IMG/VR virus record: IMGVR_UViG_3300011116_000925
Span: 1-64,000 of that record
DNA length: 64,000 nt
Source: a virus
Direction: 5' to 3' (one strand)
Shown: positions 3,831 through 58,842 of the stretch, piece after piece
How the letters are laid out: the number at the start of each line of letters is the position of its first letter
Position numbering within the stretch: position 1 is the stretch's first letter
Made by a program: the position numbers and the translations under genes
The notes under the pieces: model-generated
Told to the model about the DNA's origin: nothing
The model's database searches: none
What the model saw: only the letters and a program-made list of their open reading frames with translations

Positions 3831-5432
3831 TTATCTCATAACATTAATTTGATAATCCATTACAGCTGGAAATCCAGTATTCGTAGTGGTGAATGTTAGT
3901 TGATAATTAGTACCTGTTGTGGCTGCAATATCAAATATTATACCAACATCGCCTCCTGATTCTACAAAATCATCAGATAATTGTAATCCCGTGGAACTTG
4001 CTGCGACGGTCAGTGTTCCCGTTCTAATTAAATTATTTCTAAATATTCGATAATTAATTTGTAAATTATTCCAATATAGATAATCACGGATGATGTCAGT
4101 TGTGGTAGTTGATGAATTATCTGGCATTTGTAATGTTCCACTAATTTGGTTTTGCCATCTATTTAGAAAAATACCATTGTTAGGACTGAAGCTCATACTT
4201 TCAGATCCTAATAAATCAACCTGGGCCACTAAATCATGCGAATCTGCTCTTCTGCTGAAATCACCAATGCTTAAATTACCTGCGTTTGAAAATGATATGA
4301 TAGGAAAATTGAATCCACCAATTCCTCCGTTAGTATTACCAACATCTCCAAAATAGTTGTTCGCACTTACTACTGAGCTAACATATTGAAATGTTTTTAT
4401 GGCTGTTGCATATACTAAATCAAAATAACTATTGGTTATTTTATAACTACATGGACCATTTGATTGGGTTCCAGAACCAGTTAAATTTTCACCAACATAA
4501 GATATGCCATAACACATTTCAAATCTGCAATTATCAAAATTTGTGTTTTCTAAATCATAATCCAATCTATTAACATATTCAAATCCATAAAATTGACATT
4601 TTGAAAATGAAATATCTCGTGATACATTCCCTAATGTACTTGTTATCTGTAACGCCTGGGCGCCATAATTTCCACCATTTCCTGTTACCCAAACATTATA
4701 AAATTTACAATTATCAACCTGTAATCCAGATACAGATCTAATTTGAAATAGGTCTAATAATTTATTGATGGACTGAAATTTAAATCCTGACACATAGTTA
4801 TTAGCAGGAAATGTTGCACCATTTGTTCCCATATTACCATCAACTTGTTGCAAACTATCCGCACAACTTATTAGATATTGAAGGGAAATATTTGAAGTAG
4901 TGATGATTGAACTATCAGAACCTTCTCCGATTATCTTTGCATTTCTAGGTAATTTAATATATGTGGAATTTATTAAATATGTTCCAGCTGGAAAAAATAA
5001 TACCTTATTATTATTTCCGGTATTATCATGACAATACAATTGAAATAATGCTCTATTAATAGCGATACTGTCATCCGTGACGCCATCACCTAAGGCACCA
5101 AAAGCCTTAACACTGACATAATCATCTAATCTTTGTTGAATTGATCTGTGAACAGGATGCATCGCATCCGTTCCAGTAGTCAACGTAATCGTACTATTTC
5201 CTTGATAGGTATACAACGGTAAGCTATCTAGTAAATCAGCAACACTCCATTCAGTTAAAATTTCAGTATTATTTGGGCTTGTATATGCCGGAGGTGCTCC
5301 AGCATCAACCGTTCCATTACCTATATAAAGACGCCTGGAATCAATTGCCCAACCAAGTTCACCTGGTGCTAGTTGTGGTAATTCTTCCTGAAGTCCCTGT
5401 CTGTGTTGTATTCGACTAATTGATACGATCAT
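3831..5432 (-). CDS. Tailspike or tail fibre with pectate-lyase-like beta-helix
   Basis: Receptor-binding or depolymerase-type tail protein of 533 residues. Residues about 10-45 match the Mtd-type N-terminal domain (GELGWAIDSRRLYIGNGT), which trimerises and attaches to the baseplate. Residues about 107-130 hold the pectate-lyase superfamily start (KAFGALGDGVTDDSIAINRA), followed by Asn/Gly/Ser-rich repeats typical of a right-handed beta-helix. The C-terminal 60 residues look like a small beta domain. It overlaps the nuclease gene upstream by 4 bp (ATGA). A glycan target is inferred from the fold only. Confidence 0.85.
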   Translation of the reverse strand: MIVSISRIQHRQGLQEELPQLAPGELGWAIDSRRLYIGNGTVDAGAPPAYTSPNNTEILTEWSVADLLDSLPLYTYQGNSTITLTTGTDAMHPVHRSIQQRLDDYVSVKAFGALGDGVTDDSIAINRALFQLYCHDNTGNNNKVLFFPAGTYLINSTYIKLPRNAKIIGEGSDSSIITTSNISLQYLISCADSLQQVDGNMGTNGATFPANNYVSGFKFQSINKLLDLFQIRSVSGLQVDNCKFYNVWVTGNGGNYGAQALQITSTLGNVSRDISFSKCQFYGFEYVNRLDYDLENTNFDNCRFEMCYGISYVGENLTGSGTQSNGPCSYKITNSYFDLVYATAIKTFQYVSSVVSANNYFGDVGNTNGGIGGFNFPIISFSNAGNLSIGDFSRRADSHDLVAQVDLLGSESMSFSPNNGIFLNRWQNQISGTLQMPDNSSTTTTDIIRDYLYWNNLQINYRIFRNNLIRTGTLTVAASSTGLQLSDDFVESGGDVGIIFDIAATTGTNYQLTFTTTNTGFPAVMDYQINVMR

Positions 5433-6184: not shown

Positions 6185-6487
6185 TTAATATTTAAATCTT
6201 TTTGGTTTCTTTTTTATAATTTTTGTATCTGGAATTTTAGCCGGCATTGTTATATGATATGAATTTTGAGTTGCTTTTAATTCTGGATTGGATACCAAAA
6301 TATTATCTGCAAATTGTTCAATATTATCCTTGGATATCGAACCAAATTCTTGTTTCACTAATTCTAAATCAACGGATATAACATATGATTTTTCAATAGT
6401 TACGACTGCAGAATTATTAGAATTTCCTTGTTTCCAAATTTTCTTTGAAATATTTTCTTCTTTTAAAATATCAATAAAATGTCGCAT
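6185..6487 (-). CDS. Small phage protein, unknown
   Basis: A 100-residue protein with a basic C-terminus (IIKKKPKRFKY). Its N-terminus (MRHFIDILKEE) is of the amphipathic type seen in the capsid-targeting candidates of this genome, but the residue after LKE is Glu, so it is a poor match. It ends 1 bp from the next gene and belongs to the run of late-type genes. No domain recognised. Confidence 0.7.
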   Translation of the reverse strand: MRHFIDILKEENISKKIWKQGNSNNSAVVTIEKSYVISVDLELVKQEFGSISKDNIEQFADNILVSNPELKATQNSYHITMPAKIPDTKIIKKKPKRFKY

Positions 6488-9062: not shown

Positions 9063-9524
9063 CTATTTCAATCCTAGTTTTTTCTTGGTAGTTGTGATAG
9101 TTGTGTTTGGATCATTCGGATCCATTTGTAATGTAATATTTGTTCCGTCAGATTTAATTACCTTGGATGGACCAATATTTGGAACTTCAATAGTATCTCC
9201 GACTTTTGTTGGCATTGGTTGATTCTTATTAGGGTTATCTGTTGTTTGTGGTGGTGGTTTAATTCCTGTGGAGGATCCAGAAGATTGAATTGCTGATGAT
9301 GTTGTTGATTGCCCAGTTGGAACAGTTTTACCAATTTTGTTTGTCATAATCTGCGCCATATTACTGGCTCCCTTGCCGACACCAGAACCAAGAGTTTTAG
9401 TAGTTTTACCTGCAATATTTAAAATATTTTTAGCTCCAGTCCCCAATCCTTTTGCTGCCATACCTAACATATTGCCAAAGCCTGTTGCTGGATTAACCTC
9501 TATGATGAATTCTTTGGCTCTCAT
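9063..9524 (-). CDS. Glycine-rich protein with capsid-targeting-like N-terminus
   Basis: A 153-residue protein beginning MRAKEFIIEVNPATG, very close in form to the T4 internal-protein targeting peptide MKTYQEFIAE; cleavage after IIE would leave VNPATG. A Gly/Ala/Lys-rich amphipathic region follows (residues 12-75), then a Ser/Thr/Pro/Gln linker and a small basic C-terminal domain. This suggests a packaged internal head protein. It ends in TAG, one of few amber stops here. Coupled to the gene upstream by a 32 bp overlap. Confidence 0.7.
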   Translation of the reverse strand: MRAKEFIIEVNPATGFGNMLGMAAKGLGTGAKNILNIAGKTTKTLGSGVGKGASNMAQIMTNKIGKTVPTGQSTTSSAIQSSGSSTGIKPPPQTTDNPNKNQPMPTKVGDTIEVPNIGPSKVIKSDGTNITLQMDPNDPNTTITTTKKKLGLK

Positions 9525-10246: not shown

Positions 10247-10999
10247 TTAATGATTTTTGTCTCTTACGAGAGCATGGCCTAGTGCTATACCACCAATGGC
10301 CGCCGCAGTACCAATAGCAACTCCTTTAGCAATTTTGGCTAGAGTGGATCCAGATTTATGTGGAAACTTTCCAGTTTCTGGATTTACTACATTTTTTAAT
10401 TCATAATTTTGATGTTTAGAAACTTTTTCCAATTCATGTAGGATATCACTGGTTCCCATATGACGCAAAGCCATCAATAATCTAGTTGCTGCTAATTTCC
10501 TTTCTGTTGGAAATAATCTATGCCAGTCACTAGCTAACCGTCGCATAGCACTATAGTCAGAATTAGTATTATATAAACTTTTATCTAATTTAAACAAAAA
10601 ATCACGATCCTGATCTTCATGTAATTCACCAGTTGCTACATGTCTTAAATATGCTTTAATTTGTAATAATGGCAAATGAATTCTAGCAGCCAATGTGTCA
10701 TTACTTGGATGTTTTCTAAGCTTTGATAAATTTATTTCACTTAGATCACTTAATATGGCCAATAAATTATATAGATCGGTGCAACTACTTCTAAACCCTC
10801 TAAAATCATTATATGCTAAAGTTTTGCGGGCATAAGATTGTGCAAAATACATAGTTTCTTTTTCATGCTTTAAGATATTCAATGCACATATGATCAACAA
10901 ACAATATCTAGCGGCCTGTTCAACATCCATTTTTTCTAAACTAGCCTTTTTAGTAAAAAATAATCCCTCATTAATATTATTGATAAATTCGGCTTTCAT
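10247..10999 (-). CDS. Helical virion-type protein with C-terminal hydrophobic segment
   Basis: A 250-residue, largely helical protein. The N-terminus MKAEFINNINEGLFF contains INE-G, a good gp21-type cleavage site at residue 11. The C-terminus carries one Gly/Ala-rich hydrophobic segment (about residues 222-243), which could cross a membrane. Overlaps the gene upstream by ATGA. It may be an internal or injected head protein; this is inference. Confidence 0.68.
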   Translation of the reverse strand: MKAEFINNINEGLFFTKKASLEKMDVEQAARYCLLIICALNILKHEKETMYFAQSYARKTLAYNDFRGFRSSCTDLYNLLAILSDLSEINLSKLRKHPSNDTLAARIHLPLLQIKAYLRHVATGELHEDQDRDFLFKLDKSLYNTNSDYSAMRRLASDWHRLFPTERKLAATRLLMALRHMGTSDILHELEKVSKHQNYELKNVVNPETGKFPHKSGSTLAKIAKGVAIGTAAAIGGIALGHALVRDKNH

Positions 11000-13729: not shown

Positions 13730-14557
13730 CTAATAACGATATAAGACTTTATCAACAGTGCCATCATTTAAATCTTGATCTGGCATATATAGAATTTGCA
13801 ATCTTCGAAAAATTCCATAAAAATTATAATATTGAACACCAGTAAAATTTTCCAATTCAATTATTGGTGTATTTTGACCATATAATGTGATTGGAAAATA
13901 TGTATTCACTGTTGGCATAACATCATTTGCTAAGCTTCCAACAACTTGAAATCCTCCAGTATAATCTGTTCCATAAATTGCAATTGTATGTAATGCAATA
14001 TTTCCATTACTAGTAGGATGAGCATCTAAACTTCCACTTGTATATACACTAGTATATCCATCAACATAACTTGTTGATCCAACAAATGGTTCAAATGTTG
14101 TAATTATTTGACTAGAAACAAATCCACCAAAATTGCCATCTATGATTTCAACATATGCACTGGTTTCATAATTAAATCCAGTATAAAGAGGTAATTTACT
14201 CAATGTTTCATCTAGGAATGAAATGTTATAACTATAATATTTGATATCTAAATTCATACTATCACTGTCCAATAATGTTAGTGTGCATTGACCTGTGGCA
14301 GATCCATCAGTAATAAATCTGGTTAATATTAAATTACCAGTTTCTCTATCAATCATATCAAATTGTAATGTTTTACCTAATAAATTTACTGGTTTTTGAT
14401 CCTGATTTTGAATCGTAAACCTGTATTGATTCGTTACACCTTTGTTAATTTTCATTAATCTACTATAGATCATTGCATATCCTGTACCTGGTAATTCACT
14501 TAGAGTCAATACCAAATTCAACTTATTGGGATAATGGTAATGTATAAGTGGCTGCAT
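13730..14557 (-). CDS. Tail or baseplate protein with BppU-like N-terminal domain
   Basis: A beta-rich 275-residue protein. Residues about 40-110 have the pattern of baseplate upper protein N-terminal domains (NQYRFTIQNQDQKPVNLLGKT), an immunoglobulin-like fold. The ATG is 5 bp after a perfect TATAAATA late box. It ends with TAG. A virion role is well supported by promoter and composition; the exact location in the tail is not. Confidence 0.68.
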   Translation of the reverse strand: MQPLIHYHYPNKLNLVLTLSELPGTGYAMIYSRLMKINKGVTNQYRFTIQNQDQKPVNLLGKTLQFDMIDRETGNLILTRFITDGSATGQCTLTLLDSDSMNLDIKYYSYNISFLDETLSKLPLYTGFNYETSAYVEIIDGNFGGFVSSQIITTFEPFVGSTSYVDGYTSVYTSGSLDAHPTSNGNIALHTIAIYGTDYTGGFQVVGSLANDVMPTVNTYFPITLYGQNTPIIELENFTGVQYYNFYGIFRRLQILYMPDQDLNDGTVDKVLYRY

Positions 14558-14562
14558 CAAAA

Positions 14563-14570
14563 TATTTATA
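14563..14570 (-). promoter_or_regulatory. Late promoter TATAAATA (perfect T4 box)
   Basis: Exact match to the T4 gp55-dependent late box. The spacer to the ATG is 5 bp (TTTTG), so the transcript should start at the initiation codon. Confidence 0.75.
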
Positions 14571-14627: not shown

Positions 14628-14999
14628 ATGAATGATTTTAAAGAATTAATTGAAAAATTTCCCTTTATAACAATTGCTAAAGTTAGTGAAAATGAATACA
14701 TTGGAATAGTTCAAAACAGAGATAATCATGTTACCAGTTTTTATGATTTTAATCTGATAAAATCTATTGAAATGAAGAAGAAATTCCTAGAATTAGGCGA
14801 TACATGGTGGTGGGAATCAAATAGACAAATACCCATTAATATATTCTTAAAACAAGACTTTGCTATTTTTAGGGTAATTTTAAAAACATTTATTAGTAAA
14901 GAATTTAGTATTATTAGTGGCCCATGTGTGAGCTTAACAGAACTCAATAACAAACGAAGTAAAAGACGATCAATTCAATTGGTTAAGAAACTTTCTTAA
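14628..14999 (+). CDS. Conserved small protein of T4-like phages, unknown
   Basis: A 123-residue protein (MNDFKELIEKFPFITIA) on the plus strand. The central TWWWESNRQIPINIF stretch looks like a strongly conserved core seen in unassigned proteins of marine T4-like phages. Its TAA overlaps the 3' end of the first ADP-ribosyltransferase-like gene, tail to tail. Function unknown. Confidence 0.78.
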   Translation: MNDFKELIEKFPFITIAKVSENEYIGIVQNRDNHVTSFYDFNLIKSIEMKKKFLELGDTWWWESNRQIPINIFLKQDFAIFRVILKTFISKEFSIISGPCVSLTELNNKRSKRRSIQLVKKLS

Positions 15000-15801
15000 A
15001 TTCATCCTTTAATTTGATGACCATATCCATCGTCAAACCATAACAAGGTGCAGAAAACCATATTTCATGGTTACCTCCTGGTATTGATTCAGTTGGCCAA
15101 CTAATTGTGGTAAATTTATTGGATATTGGATCATAAGTTTGTTCCATCATTTTTATTGCATCAAAATTGAATGCAGAAAATTCATTGTAATTATATTTGT
15201 GTCCGTAATTCCTATAAGTTCTTATCTTATCACGAAATTCAATATCTTCAAATTTTAAATTGATCTGTTTTAGTGAATTTAAAAATGAATTGGAATCAGT
15301 TGGATTATCACATTCACACATCGAAAACAAATTCGTTAAAAGATTATTAATTCGAGTTGGCCTATGATGGAAACTATTCCACATATCATCTGCAGAACAT
15401 ATTCCCACTGTTGTTTCTTTTGTTGGAATCATTAAAAAATTCTTGCCATATCCAGCAGATATGTGTTCATTTGTTGAACAAATAAAACTCTTACTTCGTT
15501 TTGGATAATTTTTCCATCGAGGATCTATATCATCAATCCACCACGTATAATAATTGTGAGTATTAGCACTGGTTCTGATTGATGCTTTAGTAGGATTCAA
15601 ATAAATTAATGGACTATTAGAAAATTCAGTCATATTGAATCCTCTAAACATCTGTTTCTTCTCATCAAACAACGCTGCTTTTATAAATTTATTATGTGGA
15701 TGTGTTTCATCTTTTAAAATTTTTATAAAATTATCAAGTTTCTTATTTTTAGCAAATTCATCACCTGGCCAGCTTTCATTTATAAATTCATTATATCTCA
15801 T
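14983..15801 (-). CDS. ADP-ribosyltransferase-like protein, paralogue A
   Basis: First of three tandem paralogues (272 residues). The N-terminus MRYNEFINE-SWPGDE matches a T4 capsid-targeting peptide with an INE-S cleavage site. A transferase-like order follows: Arg53 in MFRGF, the KRSKSFICST block (residues 101-110) in the position of an ART S-T-S motif, then SAGYGKNFLMIP, and Glu246 in HEIWFSAPCYG. This fits an R-S-E type mono-ADP-ribosyltransferase, but no search was run. It overlaps the next copy by ATGA. Probably late, packaged and injected (inference). Confidence 0.72.
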   Translation of the reverse strand: MRYNEFINESWPGDEFAKNKKLDNFIKILKDETHPHNKFIKAALFDEKKQMFRGFNMTEFSNSPLIYLNPTKASIRTSANTHNYYTWWIDDIDPRWKNYPKRSKSFICSTNEHISAGYGKNFLMIPTKETTVGICSADDMWNSFHHRPTRINNLLTNLFSMCECDNPTDSNSFLNSLKQINLKFEDIEFRDKIRTYRNYGHKYNYNEFSAFNFDAIKMMEQTYDPISNKFTTISWPTESIPGGNHEIWFSAPCYGLTMDMVIKLKDEFKKVS

Positions 15802-16613
15802 ATTAATTTACCTTTTGGAAAATCCATAGCTTCCAATTGTTCAACCATTCCATAATGAATAGCATAACATGGAGCAGAAAACCATATTTCCTTACCATAA
15901 TTAATATTAATATTTGGCCATTCTTGTACCGAAAACCCAACTCTATTGGGATCAAAAATTGCATCCAATGTTTTAAAAATATCATAACCCTTAAGGGCCA
16001 ACAATTCCACAAAATCATTTTGGATGGTAATTTTTTTTCTAAATGTCGGATCTCGCAATGAACCATTTAATAATTGTAATGTATGCACAAAATCTTGAAG
16101 TGATTTTATTTTACTCCACATTACCATTTGAAATGATTCTTCAAATAATCTGTTTAATTCCGAATTGATATGATTTGGTTCAAATCTTCCAAAACTATCC
16201 CAAAAATCATATTTAGGACAAATTCCTATGGTTGTCTTTATCTGTGGTATCATAAGATAAGGTGCTCCATAATCAGCAGCGGTATCTAAATTATTGGTAC
16301 AAATAAAGCTTTTACTTCTTTTTGGATATTCATTCCATTTTTTGCTTATTCCATCAATCCACCAAGTGTAATAATTATCTGTATTTGCACTGGTTCTTTC
16401 TCGTGCATCTGATATATTTAAATGATAAATTCGTGGTTGTCTTTCATTACCAAATCCTCTCCAGATTCTCTTTGATGGATGTATTCCTAATTTAATTAGA
16501 TCAAATAAAGGAGAATTTGTATTTTGTAGTTCTTTATAAAATGTATTTAGATCAAGATCATGAGTATGTTCATCACCTGGCCAACTTTCCTTAAAAATTT
16601 CATTAGCTCTCAT
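15798..16613 (-). CDS. ADP-ribosyltransferase-like protein, paralogue B
   Basis: Second copy, 271 residues. The start is ATG 16613 (MRANEIFKESWPG); longer in-frame extensions upstream would lie inside paralogue C and lack homology. Equivalent motifs are RIWRGF, RSKSFICT and KEIWFSAPCYA. The cleavage-like site is FKE-S, with Phe instead of Ile/Leu. It begins inside the last codons of paralogue C (16603-16613) and ends in ATGA with paralogue A, so all three come from one mRNA. Confidence 0.72.
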   Translation of the reverse strand: MRANEIFKESWPGDEHTHDLDLNTFYKELQNTNSPLFDLIKLGIHPSKRIWRGFGNERQPRIYHLNISDARERTSANTDNYYTWWIDGISKKWNEYPKRSKSFICTNNLDTAADYGAPYLMIPQIKTTIGICPKYDFWDSFGRFEPNHINSELNRLFEESFQMVMWSKIKSLQDFVHTLQLLNGSLRDPTFRKKITIQNDFVELLALKGYDIFKTLDAIFDPNRVGFSVQEWPNININYGKEIWFSAPCYAIHYGMVEQLEAMDFPKGKLI

Positions 16614-17421
16614 TGTCATTTCCAAATCGTAATTTATCCATAATATCTTTGTGAATAGCATAACATGGAAAAGAAAACCAAATTTCATTATATTTTGGTA
16701 ATTTTATATTTGGCCATTTCATTGTACGAAATTTAAATTTAATTGGATCATAGATATAATCCATTGCCTTAAAAATATCAAATTGATTCTTTTTTAGAAT
16801 TAGATAAAAATCTGAATGATGATATAAATTATTATTCAACCGTATTATATTCTTTTTATCCAATAACATTGTATTCATAGATTTTAAAGTTTGAATAAAT
16901 TTTTCTTTAGATGTTAAGTCTAAATTCAATCCTAATGCTTCTAAAATTTCATTAAGATTACGATTAAGACCATCTGGACAATATTCCTTAAAACTACTCC
17001 AAAAATCATCATCTGGACATATTCCTATTGCAGTTGATTTGATCGGAATTAATTGAAAAACTTCTCCATATCCACCTGCAATATCTGGATTAGATCCACA
17101 GATAAAACTTTGACTTCTCTTAGGATAATCTTTCCATTTTTTACTCACATGATCTATCCACCATGTATAGTAATTGTCTGTATTTGCACTTTTTCTCACT
17201 GGTGCAGTAGATGGATCAATGTAATATACACCAATTTTATTTAAACCCGAAAAACCTCGATAAATTTGTCTACCAGATATTGATCCATTTTTAACAATTT
17301 TTGATTCAATAGATTTGGGATTTTTAAGGGCGCCGTAAAAATTTTTTAAATTCATAGATTGAACAATGGATTTCTTAGAACCAGGCCAACTTCCGCCTTC
17401 AAATAATTCATATGATCGCAT
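16603..17421 (-). CDS. ADP-ribosyltransferase-like protein, paralogue C
   Basis: Promoter-proximal copy, 272 residues. N-terminus MRSYELFE-GGSWPG gives an LFE-G site. Motifs are QIYRGF, the shared block SANTDNYYTWWID, KRSQSFICGS, then IGICPDDDFW, and NEIWFSFPCYA near the C-terminus. The ATG is 4 bp after AATAAATA, so the operon is read as leaderless late mRNA. Copies differ widely outside the motifs, which suggests different targets rather than dosage. Confidence 0.72.
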   Translation of the reverse strand: MRSYELFEGGSWPGSKKSIVQSMNLKNFYGALKNPKSIESKIVKNGSISGRQIYRGFSGLNKIGVYYIDPSTAPVRKSANTDNYYTWWIDHVSKKWKDYPKRSQSFICGSNPDIAGGYGEVFQLIPIKSTAIGICPDDDFWSSFKEYCPDGLNRNLNEILEALGLNLDLTSKEKFIQTLKSMNTMLLDKKNIIRLNNNLYHHSDFYLILKKNQFDIFKAMDYIYDPIKFKFRTMKWPNIKLPKYNEIWFSFPCYAIHKDIMDKLRFGNDNES

Positions 17422-17424
17422 TAA

Positions 17425-18006
17425 TTATTTATTGTTTGATGCCTGATATTCCATGAAATTTAATTTCATAACAACTAACATTGCATATGCAATTGCATGA
17501 CTCTTTTTCCAATAATAACTATTGTCCATAGGTTTAACCCATACATCATCTAATATTTGATTCCAAGGTTTGTTTAGCAAGTATCTTTTTGCTGGTCTAA
17601 TGATTGACAATACTGCGGCCAATTGTTCAATTGAACGTGGATTAAGTTTTTTTACCAGAGCATAATGATCTGCTATATGTGGTAGACTTTTAACAATTTC
17701 TTTGATTTGCAACAGATCCCAATTTGGTTCTTTGTGTATTAGTTTATCTCGTAATTCTATGGAATCAATTCCTTGATAGGTTGTGTTATTCAACAAATCT
17801 AACTTAAAATATCCTAATTTTTCTGCAGTTTCATAATCTATGCTAGATAGATTCATATGATCTGTTGGTATATCTTGAACATAAATTCCAGTATTATGTT
17901 TTACTCGTATACCATGTTGAATCATACTTGCATTCTTATGTTCTAAATGAACTAATGCTAGGTCACGATTTATTAAGTCTATGTCAATGTCAGGTAATTT
18001 ATTCAT
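17425..18006 (-). CDS. Miniature DnaE-like (Pol III alpha) palm protein
   Basis: Only 193 residues, yet it follows DnaE block by block: PDIDID (Asp6, Asp8, as in the E. coli DnaE D401/D403 motif), KHNTGIYV (DnaE KHAGGVVI), YFKLDLL with Asp70 (DnaE KFDFLG, D555), a LIALVALFRP-like LAAVLSIIRPAKR, and KKSHAIAYAM (DnaE FNKSHAAAYA). PHP, thumb, tau- and clamp-binding parts are absent. Similar short proteins occur in T4-like phages. Whether it polymerises is unknown. Coupled to the zinc-finger gene upstream by TAATG. Confidence 0.8.
   Translation of the reverse strand: MNKLPDIDIDLINRDLALVHLEHKNASMIQHGIRVKHNTGIYVQDIPTDHMNLSSIDYETAEKLGYFKLDLLNNTTYQGIDSIELRDKLIHKEPNWDLLQIKEIVKSLPHIADHYALVKKLNPRSIEQLAAVLSIIRPAKRYLLNKPWNQILDDVWVKPMDNSYYWKKSHAIAYAMLVVMKLNFMEYQASNNK
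17426..17433 (-). promoter_or_regulatory. Late promoter box AATAAATA of the ART-like operon
   Basis: Spacer of 4 bp (ATTA) to the ATG at 17421. It overlaps the stop of the mini-DnaE gene. Confidence 0.65.
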
Positions 18007-19128: not shown

Positions 19129-19368
19129 TTATTCTCCAGGATTATTTGGTGGTGAAAATTTTAATAACCATAAACTTTCTTCTTCTGGGCTATTAAATTT
19201 TAATCTAAATCTGAATCGTTGATGATTTACATCATAATATTCTTCCACTATATATTCACCAGGATATCGCTTTTGCATCTCTTCTAATCCATTTTGTGGT
19301 AATCTTGAGTGCCCTATGATGTTCTGTGATAGATGCAACCAATTTAAATACCATTGCCATTCAGACAT
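19129..19368 (-). CDS. Small protein of the FxLRW family
   Basis: 79 residues from the ATG in TAATG (MSEWQWYLNWLHL). It ends with ESLWLLKFSPP, a divergent form of the C-terminal motif shared by about ten small proteins here. The next gene upstream ends in the same TAATG, so translation is coupled. Function unknown. Confidence 0.68.
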   Translation of the reverse strand: MSEWQWYLNWLHLSQNIIGHSRLPQNGLEEMQKRYPGEYIVEEYYDVNHQRFRFRLKFNSPEEESLWLLKFSPPNNPGE

Positions 19369-19625
19369 TATTTCCACCTAAGTATAAACATGCTTATTAT
19401 ATGCTCTTCAATTTTATCTGTAAATTCAATTTCACAGTAATTCACCTCAAAAGTTTTAGGATCATATGTTATCCAACATGCCCATCCTAATCCTTCATAT
19501 GGATTACAGAATTCATGTAATCGCTGACCAACATTTTCTTCCAACCATGAAATCAATAAATTATGTTCACCTGGATAAGAATTTTTATCAGATAATAATT
19601 TAATAGGATCGACCTCCATCAACAT
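19368..19625 (-). CDS. Small protein of the FxLRW family
   Basis: 85 residues (MLMEVDPIKLL), ending ISMFILRWK. The start is the ATG in TAATG formed with the stop of the upstream copy. It shows the family layout: an N-terminal helix, a central W/C-rich segment (GLGWACWITYD) and a beta strand plus helix closing on FILRW. Confidence 0.7.
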   Translation of the reverse strand: MLMEVDPIKLLSDKNSYPGEHNLLISWLEENVGQRLHEFCNPYEGLGWACWITYDPKTFEVNYCEIEFTDKIEEHIISMFILRWK

Positions 19626-19876
19626 TATGACCATTTCAAAATAAAATGTGTATAATCTGCATGATTATCAAATATAACTTGATGTGGCGCATCAGAATTT
19701 ATGTCAGACAATTTTACAAATGCGTTAAATTCGATTTTTAATCTAGTGGTAATAGCCAAAAAATATTCCTTAGAACTATCAATATCATTAATTGATTTTT
19801 CTTGATCTTTTTCAAAATTTTGCCAATAAATTGGACACTTAGAAAGTTCTCTTTCTAAATAGATAATATATTCCAT
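19625..19876 (-). CDS. Small protein of the FxLRW family
   Basis: 83 residues (MEYIIYLEREL), ending YTHFILKWS. TAATG coupling with the copy upstream fixes the start. Shares a KLSDxN/CLDxN stretch and an RLKIEFNAF/RLRDEFNAI stretch with that copy, so these two are the closest pair. Confidence 0.7.
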   Translation of the reverse strand: MEYIIYLERELSKCPIYWQNFEKDQEKSINDIDSSKEYFLAITTRLKIEFNAFVKLSDINSDAPHQVIFDNHADYTHFILKWS

Positions 19877-20139
19877 TAAGACCATCGTAATATAAAATAA
19901 GACATTGATTCTGTTGAATCAAACGTAACGGTTTTATATATTAAATTCTCATCGAGACATATGATTGCATTAAATTCGTCCCTTAAACGAATCCTGCTAT
20001 ATTCTGTTATACTTATATGTTTATCTAATTCTGTATTAGATGACATCCATAATTCTTCAGTGTCAATTACAAACCGTTGCCAAAATTTTGGACATCGTGA
20101 CAAAATATATGGAAATGTTAGTATCAATGCATTAGTCAT
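19876..20139 (-). CDS. Small protein of the FxLRW family
   Basis: Start at ATG 20139 (MTNALILTFP) gives 87 residues, matching its relatives; an upstream TTG is less likely. Ends MSYFILRWS. Close relative of the next gene (shared RLxxEFNA core). Function unknown. Confidence 0.68.
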   Translation of the reverse strand: MTNALILTFPYILSRCPKFWQRFVIDTEELWMSSNTELDKHISITEYSRIRLRDEFNAIICLDENLIYKTVTFDSTESMSYFILRWS

Positions 20140-20159
20140 AATGCATAATATTAACAAAA

Positions 20160-20660
20160 TTACCAAACTTTTTCTATTTTAATCACTTCACTTAATCGAC
20201 TAATTTCTCTAACAAAAAACGCACATACACTTTCTGGCTTATCATCCAGTGGAACGGCCAACAATTGACCCAATTTCAATTTTGGAAAATACCATTTAAT
20301 ATCTGGATATACATCCAATATTTCAACTTCAGAAAAATGTGGTTTAAATCCACTGAATGGATTAAAAACAAACCCACTAAATCCACGTTCATTTAAACTT
20401 GTTATTGGAATTACTTCTAAATCACCTACTTCGGGATCTCCAATCAATATACACCAATCCCTTGGCATCTTAATGACATTTTTTCCTATTTTTAAAACTA
20501 CCGCAGGTTCATTAAAACTTTCTATGAACACCAATGGCATAAAAAAATAATCTGGATTATCTGGATCACTATTATCTAATACACAAAATCTTAAATCATC
20601 AATTCGTTCTGGTAATTTATTTAATTCAAAAACTGAATTATCTTCACGTAATATTCTCAT
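20160..20660 (-). CDS. Conserved protein next to UvsW, unknown
   Basis: A 166-residue beta-rich protein with blocks typical of an unassigned family beside uvsW in T4-like phages: FESFNEPAVVLKIG, DWCILIGDPEVGDLEVIPI, GFVFNPFSGFKP. It overlaps uvsW by ATGA, so the pair is co-translated. A role in the same recombination or fork-repair process is inferred from synteny. Confidence 0.78.
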   Translation of the reverse strand: MRILREDNSVFELNKLPERIDDLRFCVLDNSDPDNPDYFFMPLVFIESFNEPAVVLKIGKNVIKMPRDWCILIGDPEVGDLEVIPITSLNERGFSGFVFNPFSGFKPHFSEVEILDVYPDIKWYFPKLKLGQLLAVPLDDKPESVCAFFVREISRLSEVIKIEKVW

Positions 20661-22349: not shown

Positions 22350-22679
22350 TTATCCTTCGTAATTTTTTATCCAATCAATTAAATGCCCATATGCTATTGC
22401 AAATAATGTCATCATTTCTTGATTTTTAAAAAATACCACACATCTATGTTCATGTTCAACCATGAAGCTATTAAAATACCATTCTCCTGCATCACTAAAT
22501 GTGTAGGTCGATCTCACACCAATGGGATATGTTCCAACAGTATTTTTACACCAACCATTAATTTCTCGGGTCAAATCATAGGATATTGGTGATATTAAAA
22601 CGGCTAGTGACCAATTATCCTTGATCATTTTCTTCAAATTTAAGTTCTTTTCATCATATTCATCAAAATTATGTGCCAT
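22350..22679 (-). CDS. Small protein, divergent FxLRW-type
   Basis: 109 residues with INGWCKNTVGTYP (the W-C helix of the family) and a C-terminal MTLFAIAYGHLIDW. Overlaps the next copy by 11 bp. Function unknown. Confidence 0.66.
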   Translation of the reverse strand: MAHNFDEYDEKNLNLKKMIKDNWSLAVLISPISYDLTREINGWCKNTVGTYPIGVRSTYTFSDAGEWYFNSFMVEHEHRCVVFFKNQEMMTLFAIAYGHLIDWIKNYEG

Positions 22680-22908
22680 TATTAGATGGTACCATTAAAT
22701 TGTTTGACCATCGTAATATAAAATGCATTAGATCATCCTCCTTTTCAAAGAAAAATTTATTACCAATGATTCCGAATTTATGAGTGATGTGATCTTCACA
22801 CCATTTTATATAATGATCTCTACCTGATTGAGTGGTTACCATCACTGCTGGCCAACCAAATTCAATCATTTGTAATAATTCCTCAAGACGTTTAACACGT
22901 ATTACCAT
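22669..22908 (-). CDS. Small protein of the FxLRW family
   Basis: 79 residues with KWCEDHITHKFG, KFFFEKEDDLMHFILRW in the right order: helix with W-C, FG turn, strand and final helix. This copy shows the family pattern most clearly. ATGGTAA overlap couples it to the gene upstream. Confidence 0.7.
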   Translation of the reverse strand: MVIRVKRLEELLQMIEFGWPAVMVTTQSGRDHYIKWCEDHITHKFGIIGNKFFFEKEDDLMHFILRWSNNLMVPSNNGT

Positions 22909-23183
22909 GGTTCTATATCATTTTCTAATGAATCTAACATCCAGACATTTGCAAATAACAAAAGATGATCATCGGTGATAAACCAAAATTTATCACCGGC
23001 CCATGTATATCTGTTTTTTCCAAATATAGATATACACCAATCATGAATATGTGGCCAGTTGTGAATTCCAAACCAACCAAGATAGATATAGGGATAATTA
23101 GATTGCTCTAACATATCCCTATTATATCCCAGAAATACTGGTTCTAAATCATGTATTTGGTCTATGGGCAATAATTCTGACAT
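22902..23183 (-). CDS. Small protein, divergent FxLRW-type
   Basis: 93 residues with IHDWCISIFGKNRYTW and DKFWFITDDHLLLFANVW, the same W-C/FG/strand/helix order but without the final LRW. It overlaps the end of the promoter-proximal gene by 35 bp. Confidence 0.68.
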   Translation of the reverse strand: MSELLPIDQIHDLEPVFLGYNRDMLEQSNYPYIYLGWFGIHNWPHIHDWCISIFGKNRYTWAGDKFWFITDDHLLLFANVWMLDSLENDIEPW

Positions 23184-31560: not shown

Positions 31561-32103
31561 TCATTTCCTCACATATCCATAGCCAACAATGAAATTAGGT
31601 GGAATTATTTTTGGATACCGAATTTCTGTTCTAGCATAATATTCAACATCTGACATTCCACCATCTATCACTAATTTTTGATATTCTTCTTTATCACTAA
31701 GCCTTTTTGCAATTTCAGTCATTGCTCCTCTCATTGGAGCCATTTTATGTAAAAAATCACTCTGTGGAATTTTAATTACAAAAGTAACACGTTCATGATT
31801 GGGTACATGTAATACTTTTGCACCAACACTTCTAAAAGTTTTTAATCGAAATTGTGTTTCTCCACCTGCTCCACTCATACTTGCATATCCATGTGCTGTA
31901 TTTGGTTCTAATGCCAATGAAACCCAACCAGCAGTATAGCCTTCTAAAGGAGCAGATAATCCATTTTTTAAAACACTATCAATATTTCGCTCATGTGTTC
32001 CATGATAAAATATCACAGGATCAGAATCTAACCACCAACCTATTTTTGTAAATCTAGCAATTTGTAATGGCTCAGTTGATTCAAATATCTCATAAAATCG
32101 CAT
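31561..32103 (-). CDS. ADP-ribosyltransferase-like protein, H-Y-E type
   Basis: 180 residues. N-terminus MRFYEIFE-STEP fits a capsid-targeting peptide with an IFE-S site. The body reads as a PARP/Tpt1-like transferase: His34 in FYHGTHE, IDSVLKNGLS, VSLALEPNTAHGYASMS with Tyr73, and Glu160 in TEIRYP. A late box 4 bp before the ATG marks it as a late, likely virion, gene. Tpt1-like phosphotransferase is the main alternative. No close similarity to the R-S-E paralogues. Confidence 0.75.
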   Translation of the reverse strand: MRFYEIFESTEPLQIARFTKIGWWLDSDPVIFYHGTHERNIDSVLKNGLSAPLEGYTAGWVSLALEPNTAHGYASMSGAGGETQFRLKTFRSVGAKVLHVPNHERVTFVIKIPQSDFLHKMAPMRGAMTEIAKRLSDKEEYQKLVIDGGMSDVEYYARTEIRYPKIIPPNFIVGYGYVRK

Positions 32104-32106
32104 TCA

Positions 32107-33069
32107 TTATTTATTTTTATTCTTAATCAATTTAAATGAACTCTGCATCTGACAGACCCATGACCATGCTAATGTTGCTGCTGCCAATGATGTAATATTA
32201 TTGACATCATATGATGGAGCTACTTCAACAAAATCTGCCCCTATCCAATCTAAGAATAAATTTTCAATTAAATACTTTGCCTGCAATGTTGTCAATCCAC
32301 CTATTTCTGGTGTGCCAGTGCCTGGAGCATATGCTGGATCTAGGCAATCAATATCAAAGGTTAGATAACATTTTTTATTCCCGACCACATTTCTAATTTG
32401 ATCAACAATAGAATCAATATTTCTTTTTATAAAATCAATAGGTGTGATCACGGTTCCACCTTCGTTTGAAAAATAATCACCTGATTTTAAATCTGCTGGA
32501 CTGCGTATTCCAATTTGTACACTCTTAGATGCATCAACGAAACCTTCTTGTATCGCATTGTACATCCAAGTTCCATGTCCATAATATCCTGAACCATGCT
32601 TAAACCAAGTATCACAATGCGCATCAAAATGAACTACACTGATAGGAAATTCATATTCATTCCACAATGAATATCCAATTCCTCTAAGAATTCCTCGAGT
32701 AATGCTATGATCACCACCAAAAATTAATGGAATATTTTTATTAGGCACTAAAATTGTTTGAATATATGATTGAATTTTATCATGACATTCTGATACCTCG
32801 AATGCGTTATTAATAGCGAGGTCACCCGAATCCCAAATATGATTATAATCAACCATATTATGGAATGTCGGGTGACATCCATCAGTAAGCATAAGGCTTG
32901 CTTCACGAATGGCTGCCGGACCTTGCCTTGCTCCTGATCTAAATGTTGTCGCTGCATCATATGGAATTCCCAATACCTGGATAGAATTCCTTTGTTCAAT
33001 ATTTCCTGATTTTAGAAAAGTTCGTATACCATGCATTGGCATGATATCTAGATCTTTATGAATCAACAT
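32107..33069 (-). CDS. speB: Agmatinase (ureohydrolase family)
   Basis: 320 residues with the full two-manganese site: GGDHSI, DAHCDTW, and DIDCLDPAYAPGTGTPE. The RSGARQGPAAIR loop and the TGTPEIGG end favour agmatinase over arginase. It converts agmatine to putrescine and urea. Full length and intact. The gene ends within the late box of the ART-like gene. Confidence 0.93.
   Translation of the reverse strand: MLIHKDLDIMPMHGIRTFLKSGNIEQRNSIQVLGIPYDAATTFRSGARQGPAAIREASLMLTDGCHPTFHNMVDYNHIWDSGDLAINNAFEVSECHDKIQSYIQTILVPNKNIPLIFGGDHSITRGILRGIGYSLWNEYEFPISVVHFDAHCDTWFKHGSGYYGHGTWMYNAIQEGFVDASKSVQIGIRSPADLKSGDYFSNEGGTVITPIDFIKRNIDSIVDQIRNVVGNKKCYLTFDIDCLDPAYAPGTGTPEIGGLTTLQAKYLIENLFLDWIGADFVEVAPSYDVNNITSLAAATLAWSWVCQMQSSFKLIKNKNK
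32108..32115 (-). promoter_or_regulatory. Late promoter box AATAAATA
   Basis: 4 bp spacer (ATGA) to the ATG at 32103. Overlaps the agmatinase stop codon. Confidence 0.62.
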
Positions 33070-46150: not shown

Positions 46151-46819
46151 TTATCTAACCTTCAATCCTTTAGGATTTCTTGGATCTGGTAATTTATTTT
46201 GTATGCTGCCAATTGGACTTGCTGTTCCACCTTTATCTAATTCTTTAATTGGCATTTCTGGTTTAATGTCACCAGCAGCATACTTATTCATATTTCGATT
46301 CTTAATTCCTTCTTTAACCTTAGCAACTAATTTTTTATTATATTCATCTCCATAATAATCAATTGTGGTTATTTTTGGTGCATCTTTATATTCACTATCC
46401 ATCAATCGGCTCTTGGCCATTTTTTCTTCAGGAGTTAATTTTTTTGAAGATTCTAAATCTTCACGATTTCTAACTAAATTATCTTGATCTAATTCACCTG
46501 GATGATCTGGACCAATTACTCTTACTTCATTCATTGGAATTCGTAACGAATCACTTACAAATTGTTCTAATATTTGATGTGTTACTGGATAACTGCAAAC
46601 TCCATCCATAATCCATAATTCAGTATTTGTTAAATTAGTAAAATCCATAGGCTTTGCTTGAATAATAGTTTTCTTTGGTTCGGTGAGTGATTTCAATCCA
46701 AATTTTACCATACTTTTTTCAAGCAATGATATCATGTCTGATGTAGGTTCTATGGCTAATTTGAGTCTGAATTTATATTCTTTCTCGCTTTCCATCAAGT
46801 ATTTTGTGAAATTTTTCAT
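46151..46819 (-). CDS. Internal head-type protein with capsid-targeting-like N-terminus
   Basis: 222 residues. MKNFTKYLME-SEKE has the form of the T4 internal-protein leader with an LME-S site. A KLAIEPTSDM-type alpha/beta part follows, then a flexible Lys/Asp-rich C-terminus (GSIQNKLPDPRNPKG). It lies between the probable small terminase and another head protein. Packaged role inferred. Confidence 0.72.
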   Translation of the reverse strand: MKNFTKYLMESEKEYKFRLKLAIEPTSDMISLLEKSMVKFGLKSLTEPKKTIIQAKPMDFTNLTNTELWIMDGVCSYPVTHQILEQFVSDSLRIPMNEVRVIGPDHPGELDQDNLVRNREDLESSKKLTPEEKMAKSRLMDSEYKDAPKITTIDYYGDEYNKKLVAKVKEGIKNRNMNKYAAGDIKPEMPIKELDKGGTASPIGSIQNKLPDPRNPKGLKVR

Positions 46820-57992: not shown

Positions 57993-58301
57993 TTAATATT
58001 CCTTTATAATTCCATGACCATGATATTGCGTGGTTCGTTGCACGCCACATGACGTATAATAATTAGCTACCACATCATTCCATCTGAGTACAAAAAAAGT
58101 ATATGCTGTTTCATTTAAAAAATCAACACGAAATTTATCAGTAGGTTTTGGATGTCTCCATTTCACACTATATTCAGATAAATCATAGGTATCAATTAAC
58201 CATTTATTCATTCTACGCATTATTTGATTGGCTCCATTTTTATCTTGCCAACATGCATAGAAATAATATGAATAGGTATATTTTGGAATATTAAATTTCA
58301 T
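57993..58301 (-). CDS. Small protein of the FxLRW family
   Basis: 102 residues: MNKWLIDTYDLSEY, FRVDFLNETAYTFFVLRWND, then an additional tail. Same order of helix, strand and final helix as the genes near 19-23 kb. ATGA coupling with the copy upstream. Confidence 0.68.
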   Translation of the reverse strand: MKFNIPKYTYSYYFYACWQDKNGANQIMRRMNKWLIDTYDLSEYSVKWRHPKPTDKFRVDFLNETAYTFFVLRWNDVVANYYTSCGVQRTTQYHGHGIIKEY

Positions 58302-58567
58302 TTTATGCTTGTGAATTTATCATGCCATGCCAATAGAAACATAGATAGGTATTCTTGTGATTTGAACCTAAAGCAATCTACAATATACCACTCAGAATTT
58401 ATTTTTGTTTCAGTTGCAATAGAATGAATTCGAGTCTTAAATCCATAATTGCCAAATTGTTTCAAACACCAATTTTCTGCAGCAATTAATGTATATGTGA
58501 AATTTGTATTACCATATGAAAAATATCCAAATGGGACCTTAAGGTTATATCCAAATCGATATTTCAT
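58298..58567 (-). CDS. Small protein of the FxLRW family
   Basis: 89 residues: AENWCLKQFGNYGFK, CFRFKSQEYLSMFLLAWHD. W-C and FG are in place. ATGA coupling with the copy upstream. Function unknown. Confidence 0.7.
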   Translation of the reverse strand: MKYRFGYNLKVPFGYFSYGNTNFTYTLIAAENWCLKQFGNYGFKTRIHSIATETKINSEWYIVDCFRFKSQEYLSMFLLAWHDKFTSIK

Positions 58568-58806
58568 TCTGAAAATGCTCGCAGTTTTTCATTCCAAGCC
58601 AAAATGAACATTCCCATATCTCGTTCATGCCTAAATGTAAAAATTGCATTTAAGAAAAAATCTGGATGTCCGTATGAAAAATTCTTAATGCCAAAATTTC
58701 TGCCACACCATTTGTTTGCATCAATACACATCTTTCTAAATTCTGATTGTAAAGAATGTTTGGCATAACTCAATGAAAATTGAATCATATTTTGGTACAG
58801 CTTCAT
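58564..58806 (-). CDS. Small protein of the FxLRW family
   Basis: Start at ATG 58806 (MKLYQNMIQF), 8 bp after a TATTAT box; a TTG upstream lies in the promoter. 80 residues with NKWCGRNFGIKNF and FTFRHERDMGMFILAW. First of three coupled copies. Confidence 0.68.
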   Translation of the reverse strand: MKLYQNMIQFSLSYAKHSLQSEFRKMCIDANKWCGRNFGIKNFSYGHPDFFLNAIFTFRHERDMGMFILAWNEKLRAFSE

Positions 58807-58810
58807 ATAT

Positions 58811-58842
58811 ACCAATAATAACACAATATTATTATTGGTCAA
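58811..58842 (-). promoter_or_regulatory. Host-type promoter with operator-like inverted repeat
   Basis: TTGACC, 16 bp, TATTAT. The spacer and boxes carry a 10 bp inverted repeat (ACCAATAATA and TATTATTGGT), so a regulator may bind here. Confidence 0.5.

Follow-up and report, generated by a model that had tools for sequence, protein, structure and literature searches.

The 64,000-nucleotide stretch of viral DNA analysed here (the window; positions 1 to 64,000 of the IMG/VR record IMGVR_UViG_3300011116_000925) carries three tandem paralogous genes, copies A, B and C, whose products are probably amplified effectors that are packaged in the phage head and injected into the host. All three lie on the minus strand, with copy A (16603–17421; 272 aa) first in the run and followed by copy B (15798–16613; 271 aa when counted from the ATG of MRANEIFKES) and copy C (14983–15801; 272 aa), and they match the PHROG family phrog_12810 with E-values of 1.6e-37, 2.8e-39 and 3.3e-34, respectively. 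Copies A and B overlap by 11 nt and copies B and C by 4 nt (ATGA), which makes translational coupling plausible, and the proteins are 38–41% identical in pairwise comparisons, with none of them having a closer relative than the other two (local support 0.998). The initial annotation had described three coupled paralogues of 271–272 residues that share a leader of the form MRxxE(F/I/L)..E followed by S or G, as well as a series of motif blocks, and this description is borne out. The N-termini of copies A, B and C read MRSYELFE/GGSWPG, MRANEIFKE/SWPG and MRYNEFINE/SWPG (a slash marks the predicted cut), and the YRGF-like arginine motif (IYRGF, IWRGF and MFRGF in the set), SANTxNYYTWWID, RSxSFIC and EIWFS were all found in the copies. 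The triplet, its motifs and its leaders are real and go beyond chance.

The three genes belong to a larger family whose 41 aligned relatives all match phrog_12810 (this and phrog_11975 are PHROG families without an assigned function). Relatives found by tblastn come from the Agrobacterium jumbo phage Atu_ph07, Salicola phage SCTP-2 and two uncultured huge phages, and in Atu_ph07 there are eleven consecutive member genes (AUZ94865–AUZ94875) drawn from two subfamilies, which we refer to as window-like and compact and which are linked by profile comparison (98.9%, E 2.8e-17). While a scan of IMG/VR with a single protein gave no relatives, two alignment-based scans retrieved 75 loci with 253 member open reading frames (ORFs; duplicates still included), commonly with three to ten in a row. 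Nine of these loci have parts of the window's helicase, primase and companion neighbourhood in common, and the window gene at 10247–10999 (minus strand) is a homologue of Atu_ph07 coding sequence (CDS) 64, the neighbour of the array in that phage (29% identity, E 2e-24). No relative of either subfamily was found in 84,980 bacterial and archaeal species genomes (GTDB) by scans using short peptide patterns which distant members could escape, and as far as such scans show the family appears to be restricted to phages. Recent acquisition from bacteria was considered and rejected. Three paralogues are what the window contains, but the local scope of the initial annotation was too small for an apparently phage-only family with up to eleven tandem copies.

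Packaging is suggested first by the N-termini. The bacteriophage T4 protease gp21 cleaves after L/I-x-E, and ten N-terminal residues are enough for an internal protein to be packaged (PMC9026906). The putative capsid-targeting leaders of copies A (MRSYELFE; 17398–17421), B (MRANEIFKE; 16587–16613) and C (MRYNEFINE; 15775–15801), all on the minus strand, were assigned from sequence and from the placement of this motif, and in copy A also from a structural model; copies A and C have a strict L/I-x-E and copy B has F-x-E instead. Among window-like members, L/I-x-E occurs at residues 4–14 in 32 of 48 proteins, compared to 8, 13, 0 and 1 in the following four 11-residue segments, and in the other subfamily E[ILFV] is found in the leader segment of 79 of 108 proteins, compared to 33, 19, 15 and 19 in later segments. 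A chance origin of the leader was rejected. In the AlphaFold2 model of copy A (predicted local distance difference test score (pLDDT) 89.7, predicted template modelling score (pTM) 0.86), the leader forms a short helix (residues 3–8) and is followed by residues 9–13, the least confident segment with a pLDDT below 50, which sits directly behind the predicted cut and precedes a confident domain.

The leaders vary from phage to phage and recur within one phage, including on unrelated proteins, with M[KR]WxQLxE found in Atu_ph07, MITFKQFLxE in IMG/VR loci L074 and L059/L060, and MKIYEIEAGE in L040. This can be seen in the window protein encoded at 31561–32103 (minus strand; 180 aa), which is unrelated to the family and shares 38% identity with a homologue in L074 (324–830) from residue 20 onward; the leaders of the two, MRFYEIFES and MITFKQYLRE, each match those of the family members of their own phage. 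Among 758 unrelated genes, 17 matched members from their own locus in at least five of nine leader residues, compared to a mean of 5.8 (maximum 14) when members from another locus were used. The leader type goes with the phage and not with the protein. We also note that the 31561–32103 protein has a YHGT motif and a weak NCBIfam match to RNA 2'-phosphotransferase (E 0.012). Elsewhere on the minus strand of the window, the product of 46151–46819, recognised independently as a head or virion structural protein (phrog_14802), has the leader MKNFTKYLME/S, and 9063–9524 and 6185–6487 encode leader-like N-termini (MRAKEFIIEV and MRHFIDILKEE) and are candidates for further packaged proteins.

The machinery that would be needed for such packaging is encoded on the same 88-kb contig, where a T4-type prohead protease (Peptidase_S77, contig 82498–83133, E 1.3e-23), a Gp23 major capsid protein (E 5e-97) and a gp20-type portal (Portal_T4, E 6e-106) were identified. 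Copy C is adjoined by a virion structural protein gene (phrog_14467; 13730–14557, minus strand) with TATAAATA placed 5 nt ahead of its ATG, and homologues of the head and tail genes of the window were found in 34 of the 75 viral loci within the flanks that were fetched. In L028, genes for portal, core protein, protease, scaffold and capsid protein come in this order and are followed by two family genes, the first of which begins 91 nt past the major capsid gene. A gene for a papain-type (C1) cysteine protease (L028 9734–10675) was also seen there, between family genes that lie downstream of the one for the capsid protein. Close to the capsid genes of our contig there is what looks like a phage NAD+ synthesis pair, in which a nicotinamide phosphoribosyltransferase lies beside a cytidylyltransferase-like/Nudix fusion of the nicotinamide mononucleotide (NMN)-adenylyltransferase type (contig 76098–77492 and 77543–78559; L084 12098–14559).

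Further evidence comes from the published mass spectrometry (MS) of Atu_ph07 virions, in which 131 proteins were found, mostly from the clusters CDS 31–76, 170–215 and 284–329, with the first of these contributing 29 detected virion proteins of which only two had earlier been predicted to be structural (PMC6102473). The family array corresponds to CDS 53–63, because the CDS numbering begins at AUZ94813 (the positions of clpX as gp2 and the primase/helicase as gp70 agree with this), and it falls inside the MS-defined virion cluster CDS 31–76. We regard this position as strong circumstantial, and not direct, evidence of packaging. It could instead be that the proteins are late cytoplasmic enzymes whose N-terminus is no more than the ordinary start of the fold, and several observations weigh on this side: the virion evidence is at the level of the cluster and not of a named member, and with 29 of 46 cluster CDS detected any single one may be absent from the virion; leader-like N-termini are also found in Atu_ph07 outside the virion clusters; the leader-pattern count for all genes of our contig is a modest excess (8, compared to a shuffle mean of 2.8 and maximum of 9); and the leader is conserved more than the body in 15 of 25 loci and not in all, although start-codon errors affect this last comparison. 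We nevertheless consider the cytoplasmic explanation unlikely, as it does not account for the placement of the leader motif, the phage-specific leader on unrelated proteins, the low-confidence hinge behind it, the adjacency to head genes, or an Atu_ph07 array lying within a virion cluster. The same observations, with the S77 protease, mean that the proposal in the initial annotation of packaged, trimmed and diversified proteins is well supported by indirect evidence.

Packaged proteins need not be effectors, and the leader, the late-promoter-like box described below and the head-gene neighbourhood would also suit structural core or scaffold parts of a large head. However, copy number varies widely (three here and eleven in Atu_ph07), unlike that of essential core proteins, and zeta-toxin-like kinase domains are attached to the family domain in several members, including Atu_ph07 CDS 53 and one in L026, which is also unlike such proteins and fits effectors better; a structural role is consequently very unlikely. 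Among the other composite members of Atu_ph07, CDS 54 consists of two family domains and CDS 63 has a weak GNAT match. Fusions of the family domain with such kinase domains, and in one case a weak GNAT match, were noted at L004 12479–14815, L026 7236–8714 and L004 3707–4795.

If the three proteins are packaged effectors, they would be synthesised late and sorted by the 8–9-residue N-terminal leader into the prohead core, where the T4-type (S77) protease would cut after L/I/F-x-E. They would then stay with the DNA in the head until ejection into the host at infection. There the remaining domain of some 260 residues would probably work as an enzyme against host targets, leading to cell takeover or the disarming of a defence. 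Tandem duplication and divergence could have given each phage lineage its own set with several specificities, a diversification that may be likened to that of the arms-race internal proteins of the T-even phages. The case for late synthesis, sorting and cleavage is strong but circumstantial, and ejection and enzymatic action on the host are steps which we infer; for these exact proteins, packaging, cleavage, ejection, activity and host targets have all been deduced from comparisons of this kind.

The initial annotation had also proposed that the copies are ADP-ribosyltransferases (ARTs) of the R-S-E type, named for an ordered arginine, serine and glutamate, and that they have no sequence likeness to T4 Alt. 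The latter claim is correct, since hhalign gave probabilities of 0.5–1.0% with up to 38 Alt sequences, and we reject the possibility of an Alt homologue. Of the former, the order of the motif residues is borne out, and these residues are nearly invariant. Across the 41 relatives and in copy A numbering, R76, R102, D139 and E246 are invariant, with S105 found in 40 and R55 in 37, and in 45 members of the compact subfamily R65 and R91 are invariant, with E172 found in 44, R46 in 43 and S94 in 41. The YRG-type arginine (R55; R46) is on predicted strands 54–57 and 45–48, the STS-type serine (S105; S94) comes directly before strands 106–109 and 95–98, and the candidate catalytic glutamate (E246; E172) opens strands 246–249 and 173–176 or immediately precedes them. 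The context of these residues (YRG; S-x-F-x-C/T, then A..YG and a strand; and E followed by two hydrophobic residues) resembles that of R-S-E enzymes in order and spacing. Profile comparison with T4 ModA/B gave 5.6% and 16.7% at equivalent motifs, compared to no more than 1.7% for 26 decoy families, and it should be noted that ModA/B and Alt, a pair of known ARTs, reached only 36% in the same comparison.

In the fold check proposed with the ART reading, two confident models (copy A, and a compact 196-residue relative with pLDDT 93.4 and pTM 0.89) matched neither an ART nor any other solved fold of the PDB at E < 0.3 (best E 0.91 and 0.31, respectively), in a Foldseek search run with no ART positive control or coordinate superposition and by which very divergent ARTs can be missed. 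None of the listed viral fold matches of copy A was named as an ART, and the significant ones are apparently the family itself. Other points count against the ART step as well. The Q/E expected two residues ahead of the glutamate is absent (the window copies have YNE, GKE and NHE, and in relatives N, G, D or K predominate at this position), R55 is replaced by Lys or Gly in 4 of the 41 relatives, the chain terminates in a helix shortly past the glutamate whereas the Alt and ModB sequences extend further, and the invariant R76 and R102, together with the invariant D139 of window-like members, have no role in the R-S-E scheme.

These results bear on a second explanation, differing in chemistry alone, in which the packaged effectors have a new fold and the Arg/Asp/Glu set binds and cleaves or transfers another phosphorylated substrate, such as a nucleotide, nucleic acid or defence second messenger, with the R-S-E order being a coincidence. 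It is favoured by the two independent models without a PDB match, by the finding that the strictest arginines and D139 fall outside the R-S-E set while the YRG arginine is less conserved, and by the lack of a Pfam, NCBIfam or PADLOC family. Neither single proteins nor profiles gave a credible match in these three collections or among PDB sequences. The fit of motif order and spacing to R-S-E ARTs, the ModA/B score above every decoy and the potential of the fold search to overlook divergent ARTs all speak against it, and we would give a new fold with other chemistry a little less than an even chance. A third explanation is that the proteins are injected non-catalytic binders or inhibitors like T4 IPI*, each copy directed against a different host defence and with the invariant residues holding the fold together. 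The proteins are strongly diversified and tandemly amplified, and their copies are specific to lineages, which would agree with this in resembling the internal proteins of T-even phages (PMC3012670), but the charged arginine and glutamate residues are kept invariant although identity falls to 16–45%, which points to an active site rather than a diversified binder and makes this explanation unlikely. On the basis of sequence comparisons and models, then, copies A, B and C are probably enzymes that are ART-like at best, and NAD+-dependent ADP-ribosylation is the likeliest single chemistry, though one we would suggest only tentatively.

The timing of expression is suggested by the late-promoter-like box AATAAATA at 17426–17433 (minus strand), which is 4 nt ahead of the copy A ATG as the initial annotation had stated, but with one mismatch to TATAAATA, and whose bases double as the last codons and stop of the upstream gene (AAT AAA TAA). 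On the 88-kb contig, 14 of 16 occurrences of [TA]ATAAATA are within 100 nt upstream of a gene start (approximately one expected) and eight are within 10 nt, and TATAAATA is depleted in the window (3 compared to 15.7 in shuffles). Boxes located 4–10 nt before starts span contig positions 3831–80084, and examples in the window include 14563–14570 and 32108–32115 as well as the box of copy A; AATAAATA is also found 4 nt ahead of the ATG of the 31561–32103 gene. The suggestion that the box is too near the ATG to matter was rejected on finding equal spacing at other genes. A Shine-Dalgarno-like core was seen in 1 of 17 near-box entries compared to 40 of 117 genes overall. T4 late transcription begins a few bases past the late box, and near-box messages would therefore be leaderless or nearly so, making it possible that these genes produce late mRNAs of this type. 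Late expression of copy A is predicted from a one-mismatch box belonging to an enriched class.

Runs of proteins of approximately 80–100 aa encoded at 19129–20166, 22350–23183 and 57993–58842 (minus strand) have a C-terminal motif like FILRWS in common and seem to form a further dispersed family of paralogues.

Published surveys that cover the conflict genes of jumbo phages and viral NAD/ADP-ribose systems report that phage ARTs are often found in packaging contexts, and in the passages matched by a term search neither these Atu_ph07 proteins nor the array are named (PMC7824862, PMC9503650). Packaged effectors with a T4-type tag are a known concept, and in the parts of the literature covered we did not find a description of this family, its amplification or its apparently unmatched fold. 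Jumbo phages have dozens of unexplained virion proteins, and the family unites a large block of them as one domain in many copies with one address tag. With somewhat less than even confidence, we suggest more broadly that packaged enzymes of one superfamily confined to phages, with a fold outside the PDB, up to eleven tandem copies per virus and fusions to other effector domains, may be what T4-related jumbo phages inject to take over the host or counter its defences, and that the leader would be a swappable phage-specific tag sorting unrelated proteins into the head. If true, this would predict the proteins that each phage injects, a known tag could be used to load foreign cargo into very large heads, and there would be many parallel enzymes whose targets may expose host defences. 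The published Atu_ph07 virion data make the presence of gp53–gp63, and of N-termini following L/I-x-E, a question that can be checked.

Among known systems, T4 Alt, ModA and ModB share with the family the order of R, S and E, Alt is itself packaged and trimmed, and there is the weak profile match to ModA/B; the family differs in having no similarity to Alt, no Q/E-x-E and no fold match, and in its additional invariant arginines and early C-terminal helix. The T4 internal proteins IPI, IPII and IPIII are alike in having a short N-terminal leader that ends at the L/I-x-E site cut by gp21, in coming from a genome with core genes and a T4-type protease, and in combining a conserved type of leader with bodies that have diversified (PMC9026906, PMC3012670). 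They are small basic proteins, in contrast to family bodies of approximately 190–300 aa which consist of one domain, occur in up to eleven tandem copies and have near-invariant enzyme-like residues. Also close is Atu_ph07 CDS 53–63, a homologous tandem array with M[KR]WxQLxE leaders located near a replicative helicase, which differs from the triplet described here in having eleven genes, two subfamilies and fused domains.

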